From positions 1-40,214 of the IMG/VR virus record IMGVR_UViG_3300044825_002350: a stretch of 40,214 bases of DNA. The stretch is one strand, 5' to 3'. Positions 26,938 to 40,214 of this stretch are shown piece after piece (within the stretch, counting starts at the first letter, position 1; the number at the start of each line of letters is the position of its first letter). The notes beneath the pieces are model-generated. The model did no database searches, was not told where the DNA came from, and worked only from the letters and a program-made list of their open reading frames with translations. Position numbers and translations under genes: made by a program. This stretch comes from a virus.

Positions 26938-28218
26938 TCAATTGTGCAAACTGGCTAATTCTCGTTTGGGACTCTTGCGACGCTTTGGTTTCCGCTTTGG
27001 CTGCTCACTGATCTCATCTGAGACTGAGTGATCGACTTGATTCATGACGTCCTCGAAGATGCCGCCAAACTGAGACGCAACCGTATCCCATGAGAACTGC
27101 GGATCTGTCACCCGCTGGTAGCAGGCATCCCCTACTTGCCGCCTACGCTCCGGATCGTGGTACAGGGCATTGAGGATCTCGGTGAGGTGCTCAGCGGATG
27201 GGCAGGGCATCTCTCGTGCGTAGTTGACGTCCACATCAACGTGTTCAGTTTTAATCAGCTCTCCATAGCCTTCGAAGATTTCTTTGGTACTTGTATGATC
27301 TGGAACAATTTGAGGCACACCGCACGCTGCATGTTCAAAATTAACAAGCTCCCATCCGCCTCCTTTAGTTGTGTTTACGCCTACGTCGCAGGCGTTGTAA
27401 ATAATGTTCAGCATTTCCACTGATACATTCGGAGGGCCTTCACTTGGAGAAGTCATGATGATCCGCCCATTAGGATCAAGGCCAACTTTTGACATTTCAC
27501 GACCAAATAGATCCATTACACTCCAGCCTTGATCGCGACTTCCCATGTGCAAATACAGTTGCGCTTCTGGTTTACCTATTGCAAACTGAGCAAATGCTTT
27601 GATGGTGATATCAATCCTCTTTCTAAATTGATTGCGATTTGCGTTCAGCACAATAAACAAATCTTCTTTAAGGCCCAACTTGCGTCGGCAGTCAGCTTTG
27701 TCCATTGGATAGAACAGCTCTTTGTCGAGCCCGTGGGGAATAATGGCAATTGGTTTACGCACCCCACCTTTCACAAACTCATGCGCACCGAATTCTGTAA
27801 ATGCAATTAATGCATCCCACTCATTGACGTGAGGGTCAATTCCTCCAATCCAGTTGTAGCTATCCATGGTGAGATAGCCAACAAACTTAAACTTGTTTTG
27901 TTGATGTAGATCTTGTATTTGACGATATTGTTCCGCCACTATCCATGGATCGTTAAGGCTGAAAACAATGTCAGGCTGCTCCCTCTGAACCAGCTCACGG
28001 ATACGTTGTGAACCAAACGGTTCTTGCTGGAACCGATTGGAAGCAGGATAGATTTTAAAATCCTTTTGCTCCTCACATGGATCTCCATGATAATTGCATG
28101 CAAGAACAACAAACTCAAAGTCGTCCTTAAGCCTGGGCAGAATGGCTCCGGACACACGCCCAAAGCCAGTAAAAGCAACAAAATCTGCCACCCAAAGAAT
28201 TTTAGTTTTCTTGGTCAT
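26938..28218 (-). CDS. Glycosyltransferase, GT-B fold (GT4-like)
   Basis: 426 aa. N-terminal Rossmann half: KILWVADFVAFTGFGRVSGA, then a Gly/Ala-rich linker and DIVFSLNDPWIVAEQYRQ. C-terminal half: FIVLNANRNQFRKRIDITIK (the GT4 nucleotide-sugar region), ASEGPPNVSVEMLN-type segment (here TSPSEGPPNVSVEML) and NFEHAACGVPQIVPDHTS for the sugar-phosphate binding helix. It would transfer a sugar to phage DNA, a virion protein or host surface; the acceptor cannot be read from sequence. A Lys/Arg tail (KPKRRKSPKRE) ends the protein. The start overlaps the HNH stop by 17 bp. Confidence 0.85.
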   Translation of the reverse strand: MTKKTKILWVADFVAFTGFGRVSGAILPRLKDDFEFVVLACNYHGDPCEEQKDFKIYPASNRFQQEPFGSQRIRELVQREQPDIVFSLNDPWIVAEQYRQIQDLHQQNKFKFVGYLTMDSYNWIGGIDPHVNEWDALIAFTEFGAHEFVKGGVRKPIAIIPHGLDKELFYPMDKADCRRKLGLKEDLFIVLNANRNQFRKRIDITIKAFAQFAIGKPEAQLYLHMGSRDQGWSVMDLFGREMSKVGLDPNGRIIMTSPSEGPPNVSVEMLNIIYNACDVGVNTTKGGGWELVNFEHAACGVPQIVPDHTSTKEIFEGYGELIKTEHVDVDVNYAREMPCPSAEHLTEILNALYHDPERRRQVGDACYQRVTDPQFSWDTVASQFGGIFEDVMNQVDHSVSDEISEQPKRKPKRRKSPKRELASLHN

Positions 28219-28942
28219 TTAACAAGTTAGTTAGTTCTTTATCGAATCTATCGTAAACAGAACCCTTTTGGCAGTCGAGTTGACCAGGCCAAGTTCGGTT
28301 GCTTTTGGTGACATTATCAGCTTTGGTGATAATTTGCAGGTTGATTTCCACGTGTAGTCCGCACATGTAGTCACTCTGGAGTGGGTAGATGTGATCTACC
28401 TGGTGCGGAATACCCGTCGATTTTGTTAGTTCGGCTGCTTTGAAGTAAATCTGTTTGATAGCGTCTAGGTCAGCCCAGGCAGCGATAGCTTGCTTCTTGG
28501 CTGCTCGCCGTTTTGCTCCAAAGGCATTGACTTTTTCAGGGTTTCGCTCTCGCCATCGGCGGTCGTTTTTCTTTTGTCGCTCAGGATTTTGCTCTCGCCA
28601 TCGGCGGTTGTTTTCCTTGTGTCGTTCAGTATTCTGCTTGTACCATTGGTGGTCTTTTTCTTTCTGTCGTTCAGCGTTTTGTTCTCGCCATTGACGCTTG
28701 TACTCCTTTTGTTGTTCAGCGTTTTGTTTTCGCCATTGGCGGTTGTTTTCCTTGTGTCGTTCAGTATTCTGCTTGTACCATTGGCGATTGCGCTCTTTCC
28801 GTTGCTCAGCGTTCCGCTCGTACCATTGGCGCCTGCACTCCCTGTGACACTCAGGGCAGCGTTTCAGATCCGCATTGTATTGGTGCAGACCTTTGCGGCA
28901 AAGCTTGTAGCCCTCTCCAGGGCAATCATTTAGAATACTCAT
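28202..28942 (-). CDS. HNH endonuclease with zinc finger and 15-residue repeat region
   Basis: 246 aa in three parts. The N-terminus has a zinc ribbon (YKLCRKGLHQY, RCPECHRECRRQ). Residues about 40-144 are six to seven 15-residue units spaced at 15 residues between Trp, with the core QN-x-E-x(2)-KE and many Arg/Lys/Gln, a positively charged helix that may hold DNA. The C-terminal HNH is GIPHQVDHIYPLQSDY and MCGLHVEINLQIITKADN. It has a conserved RNA-like leader (28943-29003) shared with the unrelated HNH gene at 39529-40068. Confidence 0.85.
   Translation of the reverse strand: MSILNDCPGEGYKLCRKGLHQYNADLKRCPECHRECRRQWYERNAEQRKERNRQWYKQNTERHKENNRQWRKQNAEQQKEYKRQWREQNAERQKEKDHQWYKQNTERHKENNRRWREQNPERQKKNDRRWRERNPEKVNAFGAKRRAAKKQAIAAWADLDAIKQIYFKAAELTKSTGIPHQVDHIYPLQSDYMCGLHVEINLQIITKADNVTKSNRTWPGQLDCQKGSVYDRFDKELTNLLNDQEN
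28511..28825 (-). repeat. Tandem 45-bp repeat (15-residue units) inside the HNH gene
   Basis: Units W(Y/R)(K/E)QN(A/T/P)E(R/Q)(Q/H)K(E/K) and four further residues, with Trp at residues 40, 55, 70, 85, 100, 115 and 130. Unit 2 and unit 5 are nearly identical at the DNA level, indicating recent duplication or recombination. Confidence 0.85.
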
Positions 28943-29003
28943 GTGACCAGTGCAAGTGGTTGCCGTGGGCAGGGTGTTAGCGCACCGCTGCCTTTACATT
29001 TTA
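28943..29003 (-). ncRNA. Conserved HNH leader RNA element, copy B
   Basis: Read on the minus strand from TAAAAT (29003-28998): hairpin P1 is GGCAG-C-GGTG, loop CGCTAA, CACC-CTGCC (28968-28992) with one bulged C; then GGCA and hairpin P2 ACCA-N7-TGGT (28946-28960); then CAC and the ATG at 28942. Copy A lies before the HNH gene at 39529-40068 with matching layout and compensatory stem changes. Confidence 0.65.
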
Positions 29004-29007
29004 AGTT

Positions 29008-29358
29008 TTATTTTTGCACTTTGCGTTCTATTTCAAGTTCTTCTACTTCTTTTGTTTGTAGCTTGTGCTTGATAAAATCAGCAGCTTTTTTTGCGCTTAC
29101 GCCATCTGGGTTGCATGTGTACAAATCAACCGCAGCATACTGTTGAGCCGGCCACGTGTGAATGCTTGCGTGTGATTCAGCAAGCAAAGCAAGGATGGTA
29201 ACTCCTTCAGGTTCAAATTTATGACCAGTTATCCGCAAAAGAGATGCTCCCGACATGCGCACAGCAGTTTGAAGCATCTCTTCCAGATACCTGTAATCGT
29301 CCAATAGATGCTTTGGACAATTGTATAAATCTAAAATAAGGTGACAGCCGTTGCTCAC
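29008..29358 (-). CDS. speD: S-adenosylmethionine decarboxylase proenzyme
   Basis: 116 aa, the prokaryotic class. ILALLAESHASIHTWPAQQY carries the self-cleavage site Glu-Ser in ESH; the Ser becomes the pyruvoyl cofactor. YAAVDLYTCN matches the region after it, and LLDLYNCPKHLL-like (here HLILDLYNCPKHLLDD) the start. It makes decarboxylated SAM for spermidine synthesis; polyamines neutralise DNA and may help packaging or host metabolism. speD is a well-known auxiliary gene of cyanophages. The start overlaps the primase-helicase stop (ATGA). Confidence 0.93.
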   Translation of the reverse strand: MSNGCHLILDLYNCPKHLLDDYRYLEEMLQTAVRMSGASLLRITGHKFEPEGVTILALLAESHASIHTWPAQQYAAVDLYTCNPDGVSAKKAADFIKHKLQTKEVEELEIERKVQK

Positions 29359-35944: not shown

Positions 35945-36430
35945 ATGGAAACGTTACCTTTAGATTTTGATTTTTTAAACGCACGCTTTGTGATTGACAG
36001 CTCCTCTCCTAGCGGTTTAAAAACTAAAGCAGGCAAAAATGTAGGTTATAAAAATAAACAAGGTTACTGGAAGACAAACATAAATAAAAAACAATACTCT
36101 GTACATCGAATTATTTATGTGTTAAAAACAGAAAAAGATCCCAAGAATTTGGAGGTGCATCATGTTGATTTTTTAGACAATTCTGGAGAGCTTGTAGCAA
36201 CGACGGCAAGCAATAATCGATTGGCTAGACGAAGTCATCGAGGATCTAGTAAGTATAAAGGTGTCCATTGGTTTAAACCTAGGAATCGATGGAAATCGCA
36301 ACTTCGCATTAATGGAAGAATTATTCATTCGCGTACATTTAAAACAGAAAGAGAAGCAGCCTTGGATTACAATGAAGTTTGCAAAAAATATATAGAACAA
36401 GAGTATTGGGTTTTAAACGATGTCGAGTGA
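35945..36430 (+). CDS. HNH-AP2 homing endonuclease
   Basis: 161 aa. NUMOD4-like start (FLNARFVIDSSSPSGLKTKA), the segment KNVGYKNKQGYWKTNI, then YSVHRIIYVLKTEKDPKN with LEVHHVDFLDNSGEL (HNH His-His), and a C-terminal AP2/ERF-like DNA-binding domain from SSKYKGVHWFKPRNRWKSQL to EREAALDYNEVC. It is A/T-rich relative to its neighbours and splits the DUF5872-like pair 35628/36420. A TATAGAAT element lies about 28 nt before the ATG. Confidence 0.86.
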   Translation: METLPLDFDFLNARFVIDSSSPSGLKTKAGKNVGYKNKQGYWKTNINKKQYSVHRIIYVLKTEKDPKNLEVHHVDFLDNSGELVATTASNNRLARRSHRGSSKYKGVHWFKPRNRWKSQLRINGRIIHSRTFKTEREAALDYNEVCKKYIEQEYWVLNDVE

Positions 36431-38326: not shown

Positions 38327-38584
38327 GTGACCTGGGGCACTGCTAAAAAACGTATCGATAAGAATCGACAGAAGCTTCTGGAGTACAAGAAGACTTTGCA
38401 GTGCAAGAAGTGTGGACTGAATGATCATCGTGTCCTTGAGTTCCACCACATTGGAGACAAGGATAACAACATCTCCAGCATGGTAAACCATGGTTATGCC
38501 TGGAGCAGGGTAGAGGAAGAGATCAGTAAATGTATTCCGTTATGTTGTAACTGCCACAGGCTTGAGCACTGGTCAACAAATTAA
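38327..38584 (+). CDS. Small HNH endonuclease (GTG start)
   Basis: 85 aa. LQCKKCGLNDHRVLEFHHIG (CxxC zinc and the catalytic HH) and KCIPLCCNCHRLEHW (second CxxC, NCHR). This compact HNH matches a group common in cyanophages; the spacing between the Cys pairs is normal. It follows the tRNA region and its stop overlaps the convergent metallopeptidase gene by 4 bp. Confidence 0.85.
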   Translation: MTWGTAKKRIDKNRQKLLEYKKTLQCKKCGLNDHRVLEFHHIGDKDNNISSMVNHGYAWSRVEEEISKCIPLCCNCHRLEHWSTN

Positions 38585-39441
38585 TACTTTGGCTCAATCC
38601 CTAGAGCTTCTATTTGTCTTGCCAAATTATTAAGTCGTTCCGATTCTTTCAAATTTTCTGGAGAAAGTTCCGTTTCCCTTCCAAAACGTTCCCGATAAAT
38701 AGGAAGTGAGCGTGATAATTCTTTTTGTAAAGCAGACGCCTGTTGTTGATTTATAAACCCAGTTACTTTTTCAGGGATTCCCCAAGGGTTCAGTATTTTA
38801 CTAACAGCATTTTTGCTCATCTCGCTGCCTTCCCTTCTTAGCCGGTCACCATAAGCAGAAGTTCCTTCAGGGCTTATTTGAGGAGCAGGGTAATTTCCTT
38901 GTGTTGCAAAACGAGCCGCAAAACGTTCTGCACGATCTTCTTCCGGCGCATCAAAATTTTTCATTAATTTGCCAGCTAGAAAATCAACAACAGGTAAGTT
39001 ACCAGTGCTATTGCTAACTCCTTGCAAGGCTCTTCCAGCCGTACCTAAATAGCTATAGATATCTTTATCGGCTGGGTTTAAATGACCAAGCTCATGAACT
39101 TCTAAATGCCTTTCTCTTGGTGTTACTCCTCCCCTGTAACCAGGGGCACCAACCTCGCCAAGCAAAGGGTTTGCATAAGGCTGTGATCCCCACAGTGGAG
39201 CTACTGCTTGTGCAACTTGTCGTGTAATGGTAGGAGTCTTATCAATATCTACAAAGCGTCCTTTGACGCCTGTCATTTGTTGAAGCTCCTTGCTTCTACC
39301 AGGAAAGTTTTGAGGAGGGAATACTGCACGGGTTACTGGAGAAGCAGTGCCGCCCCCTGGTAGCCATCCACCCAAACGTTTATCAGCTTCTTTATAACCA
39401 GAGCTAACTTGATTAAGAAATTGTTGAAACAAATTAGGCAT
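38581..39441 (-). CDS. Putative zinc metallopeptidase with HELGH motif
   Basis: 286 aa. RHLEVHELGHLNPADK contains HExxH (HELGH), the zinc-binding and catalytic motif of zincins, near residue 116; EEDRAERFAARFA about 60 residues later could give the third ligand Glu. The rest is Gly/Pro-rich at the N-terminus and helical at the C-terminus. There is no signal peptide. It may mature virion proteins or attack host proteins; the substrate is unknown. The ATG overlaps the stop of the short upstream frame (TAATG), so it is co-translated with whatever gene ends there. Confidence 0.68.
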   Translation of the reverse strand: MPNLFQQFLNQVSSGYKEADKRLGGWLPGGGTASPVTRAVFPPQNFPGRSKELQQMTGVKGRFVDIDKTPTITRQVAQAVAPLWGSQPYANPLLGEVGAPGYRGGVTPRERHLEVHELGHLNPADKDIYSYLGTAGRALQGVSNSTGNLPVVDFLAGKLMKNFDAPEEDRAERFAARFATQGNYPAPQISPEGTSAYGDRLRREGSEMSKNAVSKILNPWGIPEKVTGFINQQQASALQKELSRSLPIYRERFGRETELSPENLKESERLNNLARQIEALGIEPKY

Positions 39442-39509
39442 TAGCCATTCCTCAAAGTAGCTTTAATAAACCAAGCAGCTTTAAAGGCTTGACCACACAA
39501 CTCAGCCAT
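39441..39509 (-). pseudogene. Duplicated gene-end fragment (second C-terminal copy)
   Basis: The frame ending at 39441 reads NYMAELCGQAFKAAWFIKAT then LRNG and stop. The same 24-residue end, with only five conservative differences (19 of 24 identical) but many synonymous changes, is the end of the partial gene at 40140-40214. The HNH gene lies between the two copies. An ATG at 39509 inside the copy could start a 22-aa peptide, and one at 39587 a 48-aa one, but it is best read as the displaced old 3' end of the upstream gene. Confidence 0.55.
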
Positions 39510-39528
39510 GTAGTTCGTTAACGACCAA

Positions 39529-40068
39529 TTATTCACTGGGAAAATTAAGACAAACGAATGTGGAGTTAAACGCGTTAGCTTTTTCATCATAAGCTATAGC
39601 TGCTTCAAGTTCCGTTTTAAATGTACCTAGTCGATAGCATTTACCTTTGTACTGAATTTTAGCAGTCCATTTATTTGTACGCTTTTCAAAAGCAACTCCT
39701 TTATATTTACTTGTACTGTTTGTTCTTTTTGGTTTATTTCTATTTAGTTTGTTCGTTTGATGAGTTGCAAGTCTTAAATTTTCAATGTTGTTATTTGATT
39801 TATTCTGATCAATGTGATCAATTAACTTTTCTGCAGGGTCTTTTAAGCAAGATAAAAACCATACAATTCTGTGTGTTAAATACATTTTAGGAGTCGGAAA
39901 ATTAATTCCTACCAGCCAATAACCTTTTTTATTTTTATAACCAGCGATATCACCCGTTTTTAGTTTTTTAGATCTGGGATTTTTCCAGCGCAAACCACTG
40001 GGAGAATCCGGATCAACTGTAAAAAGATGTTTTAGTAATTCAAGGTCGGGAAGCTTTTTTGCTATCAT
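39529..40068 (-). CDS. HNH-AP2 homing endonuclease with leader RNA
   Basis: 179 aa from the ATG 40068. A NUMOD4-like start (ELLKHLFTVDPDSPSGLRWK), GDIAGYKNKKGYWLVGINFP, HRIVWFLSCLKDPAEK with IDHIDQNKSNNNIENLRLAT (HNH), then an AP2-type domain SKYKGVAFEKRTNKWTAKIQ to ELEAAIAYDEKANAF. It is a relative of the gene at 35945. It is A/T-rich and flanked by the duplicated 24-residue gene ends. It is preceded by leader copy A. Confidence 0.88.
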   Translation of the reverse strand: MIAKKLPDLELLKHLFTVDPDSPSGLRWKNPRSKKLKTGDIAGYKNKKGYWLVGINFPTPKMYLTHRIVWFLSCLKDPAEKLIDHIDQNKSNNNIENLRLATHQTNKLNRNKPKRTNSTSKYKGVAFEKRTNKWTAKIQYKGKCYRLGTFKTELEAAIAYDEKANAFNSTFVCLNFPSE

Positions 40069-40136
40069 TTGAAAGTGACCAGGAACATTGGTTGCCACGG
40101 AGCAGGAGGCTGCAACCTCGCTGCTCTTACATTTTA
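40069..40136 (-). ncRNA. Conserved HNH leader RNA element, copy A
   Basis: Minus strand from TAAAAT (40136-40131): P1 GAGCAG-C-GAGG, loop TTGCAG, CCTC-CTGCTC (40100-40126) with the same bulged C as copy B; then GGCA; P2 ACCA-N7-TGGT (40078-40092); then CAC, seven bases and the ATG at 40068. P1 differs from copy B by paired substitutions (GAGG/CCTC against GGTG/CACC). Confidence 0.65.
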
Positions 40137-40139
40137 TAC

Positions 40140-40214
40140 CTATCCGTTTCTGAGTGTGGCCTTTACGAACCAAGCGGATTTAAATGCTTGTCCGCATAAA
40201 TCACTAAGATAGTT
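40140..40214 (-). CDS. C-terminal end of a gene cut by the window edge
   Basis: 24 codons and a stop, reading NYLSDLCGQAFKSAWFVKAT then LRNG. Open to the right edge. It is nearly the same as the end encoded at 39441-39512, separated by the HNH gene. The rest of the protein is outside the window, so its function is unknown; it is the functional copy only if the gene was not disrupted. Confidence 0.7.
   Translation of the reverse strand, partial: NYLSDLCGQAFKSAWFVKATLRNG

Follow-up and report, generated by a model that had tools for sequence, protein, structure and literature searches.

A ferritin-like gene of S-EIV1-type cyanophages whose 3′ end was probably exchanged by a homing-endonuclease element

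In a freshwater cyanobacterial virus of the Synechococcus phage S-EIV1 type, a free-standing homing-endonuclease element has probably given a ferritin-like gene a new 3′ end, while the old one stayed in place downstream. The stretch analysed (the window) spans an entire IMG/VR contig (40,214 bases), in which the S-EIV1 pairing of primase and S-adenosylmethionine decarboxylase genes as neighbours is also present. It was compared with about 100 related contigs carrying the ferritin-like gene, with a main census of 86 loci.

Read along the minus strand, the locus runs from one gene end (end 1) through a leader, an HNH-AP2 endonuclease gene and a 13-nt spacer to a second gene end (end 2) and a gene encoding an HELGH motif, which, the spacer apart, is the order given by the original prediction. 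End 1 (40140–40214; residues NYLSDLCGQAFKSAWFVKATLRNG and a stop, read from 40214 to 40140) is the foreign copy of the 3′ end of a ferritin-like (Dps-type) gene, which runs past the contig and was recognized from full-length homologues bearing Pfam PF00210. The leader (40069–40145), with two hairpins and a TATAAAAT-like box upstream, precedes an intact endonuclease gene of 179 aa (39529–40068; ATG at 40068, stop at 39529). The spacer TTGGTCGTTAACG (39516–39528) differs from the native gene upstream of N160, as judged against L006 and L005. End 2 (39441–39515; residues NYMAELCGQAFKAAWFIKATLRNG and a stop, read from 39515 to 39441) is the remnant of the native gene end, and the reading frame is open into it. 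Its TAA and the ATG of the gene behind it (38581–39441) overlap as TAATG, and it also carries the Shine–Dalgarno-like GAGGA of that gene (GAGGA...TAATG). On the plus strand, a small HNH gene of the C0 family lies just beyond (38327–38584).

The protein encoded downstream of end 2 is 87% identical to its counterpart in L004/L006, whose gene is preceded by a different HNH insertion. The name metallopeptidase, given to it earlier, has the HELGH motif as its sole basis; the motif is present, but Pfam, PHROG and NCBIfam returned no match for the protein, and a protein search with this HExxH gene against cultured phages returned nothing.

The two gene ends agree at 49 of 72 nt and 19 of 24 residues, whereas only six of the 24 codons are identical, 13 differing synonymously and five by replacement. 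The agreement in residues despite differing codons had been predicted and holds. Ungapped, the pair scores 117 with BLOSUM62, compared with a mean of 16.6 (sd 4.6, maximum 29) over 200 query shuffles; the duplicated end had been described exactly, and its score far exceeds what chance would give. Of the two copies, end 2 is the native one and end 1 is foreign, because end 2 matches the uninserted alleles of L038 and L039 at 69 of 72 nt and end 1 matches its best natural allele at only 53 of 72. The old end thus persists downstream, as had been proposed, and end 1 appears to have come with, or beside, the endonuclease.

The further proposal that the replacement end was recoded holds in part. 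Over its first 29 nt, end 1 is identical (29/29) to a natural uninserted allele, that of L012, which weakens the idea of a wholly recoded end. Strict recoding is possible for the last 43 nt or so, about 14 codons, for which the best relative agrees at 34 of 43 positions. Natural alleles reach a minimum of 33 of 43 to their nearest neighbour, so that the divergence of end 1 falls at the low edge of natural variation and deliberate recoding is not proven.

The right end of the contig coincides exactly with the first base of the repeated stretch, so that neither the body of the ferritin-like gene nor the left edge of the insert falls within it. Such a coincidence would also suit an assembly artefact at the contig end, which we consider very unlikely. 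The two ends are not a k-mer repeat, because 23 of their 72 nt differ; the order of ferritin-like gene, leader and HNH gene is also found in an independent contig (L080), and the design of replacement end and remnant in L006, L176, L178 and L179.

A complete ferritin-like gene is provided by the close relative L004/L006 (183 aa; Pfam PF00210, phrog_3636). Among cultured phages, a protein search found the gene only in Synechococcus phage S-EIV1, and Megablast gave no match. In S-EIV1 the gene carries the annotation DNA-binding ferritin-like protein and runs into the start of a sulfate adenylyltransferase gene, so that the site is empty. Several of the 86 census loci are near-identical contigs, so the following counts are not independent: in 45, the stop of a single end overlaps (TGATG or TAATG) the start of the next gene, which is of many different kinds; in 14, the end is immediately followed by a small HNH gene of family C0 on the opposite strand; 11 have an opposite-strand EndoVII-type gene at the ferritin end; five have an opposite-strand HNH gene of the phrog_3377 type, here called class II; one (L080) has the leader and HNH-AP2 gene as in the window; and ten are arranged otherwise. 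Eighteen additional contigs fall into the same types. The HNH-AP2 insertion is optional: relatives lacking an endonuclease, which the original prediction had singled out for comparison, have one end joined straight to the next gene (45/86 loci and S-EIV1).

The existence of two homologous ends might alternatively reflect tandem ferritin-like paralogues with an endonuclease between them, the second copy being reduced to its end. This reading is extremely improbable and was rejected. Only 13 nt separate the HNH stop from end 2, so that no second gene body is present; end 2 abuts the next gene just as single ends do, and no uninserted relative among the census loci has both ends. The one exception among the relatives, L068, carries its second end behind another gene and a truncated C0 HNH gene.

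In the window, the protein encoded between the two ends combines an HNH nuclease with an AP2 DNA-binding domain, the two parts of the HNH-AP2 type of homing endonuclease. It matches Pfam HNH_3 (E 7.6e-12), Pfam AP2 (E 6e-7, below the curated cut-off) and the PHROG HNH endonuclease family phrog_99 (E 4.7e-57), and its relatives of known structure include I-HmuI (1U3E) and AP2 structures. A second AP2-containing HNH gene of phrog_99 occurs elsewhere in the window (35945–36430, plus strand), with a short stretch (36044–36070) of 93% identity to the end-linked gene. The gene between the ends has no splicing apparatus around it and sits between two genes like a free-standing endonuclease of the T4 type. 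In L080, a related leader and HNH-AP2 gene directly follow the ferritin-like gene, with TAAGCCT at both edges and no second end. The combination of HNH-AP2 gene and duplicated end was seen in the window contig only, and a degenerate search with NYLSDLCGQAF alleles found no second copy of the end 1 junction, only empty or EndoVII loci.

The leader folds as a bulged hairpin followed by a small second hairpin that finishes beside the ATG. An exact DNA search matched only the contig of L080, so a covariance model was needed; it was built from four copies and found nine convincing ones in S-EIV1-like and related phage contigs. Four precede HNH-AP2 genes (window 40069–40145, minus strand; L080 5544–5622; L102 1408–1491; L097 1369–1452) and five precede EndoVII-related genes (window 28937–29021, minus strand; L186, L188, L189 and L190). 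Of the 13 pairs, four vary in both partners, and the covariation score of 0.255, against 0.109 in shuffles, leans towards structure, given that the alignment was fitted to the model. We infer that the leader is a conserved RNA with compensatory changes that serves two kinds of endonuclease. No Rfam family matched it, even at a loose threshold, and no earlier description of this sequence, which different enzyme families share, was found in the literature searched. Weaker and shorter leader-like hairpins (GAGCGGCGAG..CTCCCGCTCC..TGGCCACAG) occur in L192 (1501–1593) and L191 (1501–1574, minus strand). Since the L192 copy stands before a gene that is not plainly a nuclease gene, the leader may have a broader regulatory role in phages. 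The EndoVII-related gene that follows the second leader of the window (28202–28942, minus strand) has an internal repeat-rich region of QW(Y/R)(K/R/E)QN.E..KE units; it lies between the S-adenosylmethionine decarboxylase gene and a glycosyltransferase gene, and is absent between their S-EIV1 counterparts.

HNH-AP2 enzymes can be encoded in introns. Together with the structured leader, this would be compatible with a self-splicing intron (or an intein) that holds the HNH gene, the repeat being exon sequence. We give this reading almost no weight and rejected it: each end has a stop codon of its own, leader copies also stand ahead of endonucleases that lie between other genes, and an Rfam search of the window, L006 and L080 found no group I or group II intron.

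The arrangement is not an accident of one contig, because an unrelated HNH family shows the same architecture at four distinct loci. Class II genes (phrog_3377) lie on the opposite strand at the ferritin gene end in five contigs (L006, L077/L176, L178 and L179) and are 78–87% identical to one another. Their replacement end, KA[TV]LR[TS]S and a stop, overlaps the HNH stop, and the end of the HNH gene, in antisense, supplies its last codons; in L006, L077, L178 and L179 it is in phase with a complete upstream gene. Beyond the HNH gene, a remnant of the native end begins at one fixed codon (AAAGC[CT]AC) in each contig. These remnants have eight codons only; what identifies them is their recurrence at a fixed position, more than the score by itself. 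They lie before an HELGH-type gene (L006, L178), a different gene (L077/L176) or a C0 HNH gene (L179). Where a gene follows, its start codon is overlapped by the remnant stop, and the mini-frame leading there is open; in L179, which has no following gene, the mini-frame is closed and there is no overlapping start codon. The closest pair by ferritin-like gene is L077–L179 (83.3%) and by HNH gene L077–L178 (87.4%), an incongruence that points to horizontal spread, as expected of a moving element. L256 is the scar of a former insertion, with a swapped end (RSS) beside a truncated HNH gene and the remnant lost. The predicted insertion of an endonuclease near the 3′ end of a gene, together with a replacement end, is thus supported both by the foreign end 1 and by a second HNH family that behaves alike.

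These loci also bear on a rival reading, in which illegitimate recombination within the ferritin-like gene joined a ferritin+HNH donor, such as L080, to a ferritin+HExxH phage, leaving the endonuclease as a passenger and the duplicate without a role. The match of the first part of end 1 to the L012 allele, with end 2 from another lineage, would agree with such a scar; L080 has the donor-like arrangement without a duplicate, and the region downstream of the ferritin gene is highly recombinant. A scar does not account for an unrelated HNH gene that repeats the arrangement at a fixed codon before different neighbours, nor for end swapping that follows the inserted endonuclease family, and we regard this explanation as unlikely.

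EndoVII-type genes on the opposite strand, with a stop overlapping the last ferritin codons, form a further family at the same gene end (L054, L026, L066, L074, L171, L226 and L247). The ferritin ends at these insertions are RNS or RNP, never RNG. The RNG end is present in 28 of 39 distinct uninserted genes and in none of 13 with HNH or EndoVII insertions (Fisher 4e-6, uncorrected for relatedness). Remnants downstream of the EndoVII insertions were looked for in relatives and not found. The C0 family is a cluster of small opposite-strand HNH genes in 38 ORFs of the relatives, where it is very common just downstream; its member in the window matches Pfam HNH at only E 0.005, below the cut-off. 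In many relatives, the C0 gene lies behind the ferritin end or behind the next gene, and the intervening gene is highly variable. This spot looks like a cargo-swapping site flanked by an endonuclease. A duplicated end linked to the C0 family was observed in L068 (2713–3440), in which the ferritin end is followed by a C4-type gene, a truncated C0 HNH gene and a second end, WFIKATLRND and a stop, in TGATG overlap with another gene.

Replacement of the gene end by an endonuclease element, the reading that we prefer, could proceed as follows. The HNH-AP2 enzyme would cut the gene end of an uninserted phage, and repair would copy the donor gene end with the linked leader and HNH gene, using left homology inside the ferritin-like gene; co-conversion of this kind agrees with the 29/29 nt that end 1 shares with a natural allele. 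On the right side, where the remnant architecture is seen and the neighbours vary from phage to phage, the insert would be joined to the cut recipient end, so that the last codons of the recipient stay as the remnant. The ferritin-like gene would then be read through its new end, and the enzyme's own site would be interrupted, which may protect against self-cutting. The remnant may persist through translational coupling, as it holds the ribosome-binding sequence and the stop–start overlap of the next gene. It could also act as the right homology arm for an incoming element: since downstream genes differ between phages, the gene end is the only right-hand homology common to every recipient.

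A broader reading is that the ferritin 3′ end is a common landing site for the HNH-AP2, phrog_3377 HNH, EndoVII-type and small C0 HNH families, that unrelated endonucleases independently evolved replacement ends there, and that the half-site serves as right arm and translational coupler, enabling moves between phages with unrelated downstream genes. Taken as a whole, we hold this tentatively, at somewhat less than an even chance. Judged from the gene arrangements, endonucleases seem repeatedly to settle at the ferritin-like gene end, to supply a fresh end and often to leave the old one behind to provide the start signal for the gene that follows.

The classical routes by which mobile elements avoid damaging a host gene are introns and inteins. 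A gene-end swap would be a third way to spare the target, for which the literature searched gives fungal mitochondria as the sole example, and is a possible mechanism for foreign ends on phage genes. A single phage group offers a natural series of empty loci, inserted loci and a truncated locus with the swapped end only (L256), in which cutting, protection of the site and the part played by the old end lend themselves to direct tests. No description of a phage endonuclease with a replacement gene end was found in the open-licence literature searched, which does not prove its absence.

Among known phage systems, the T4 free-standing endonucleases ('intronless homing') are similar in being optional genes between conserved phage genes, with co-conversion of flanks and hairpin leaders, for which T4 endonuclease genes are known; their insertions are intergenic or gene-splitting (mobE/nrdA, mobA/gene 60), and a duplicated, replaced gene end is not described in the available part of that source (PMC2988022). 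F-CphI is an EndoVII-fold homing enzyme in a cyanophage and resembles the third family at the ferritin end, but its site is protected by the psbA intron, whereas here the gene end itself is exchanged (PMC6083498). HEG islands likewise place endonuclease genes beside highly variable genes, as do the C0 HNH gene and its swappable downstream genes; for these islands and for exchange-boundary nucleases, the accessible portion of the source does not describe gene-end replacement (PMC10448857). The closest parallel is the mORFs of fungal mitochondria, which swap C-termini in Allomyces atp6 and in Glomus atp6, atp9, cox2 and nad3, the native ends being 91–98% like relatives at the nucleotide level and the inserted ends divergent (64–81%) (PMC3630166). 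In the mORFs, the endonuclease gene lies at the 3′ terminus of a protein-coding gene, behind a foreign end that is in phase with it and ahead of the native end (PMC3630166); in the phages, this order of foreign end, endonuclease and native end was found in the window and at the four class II loci, with the new end in phase at the latter. The phage elements appear to work like mORFs but are no members of that group, because they use HNH-AP2 and another HNH family in place of LAGLIDADG or GIY-YIG enzymes (PMC3630166). Unlike mORFs, they occur in dsDNA phages rather than mitochondria, several enzyme families share one gene end, and TAATG or TGATG links the remnant to the gene behind it.
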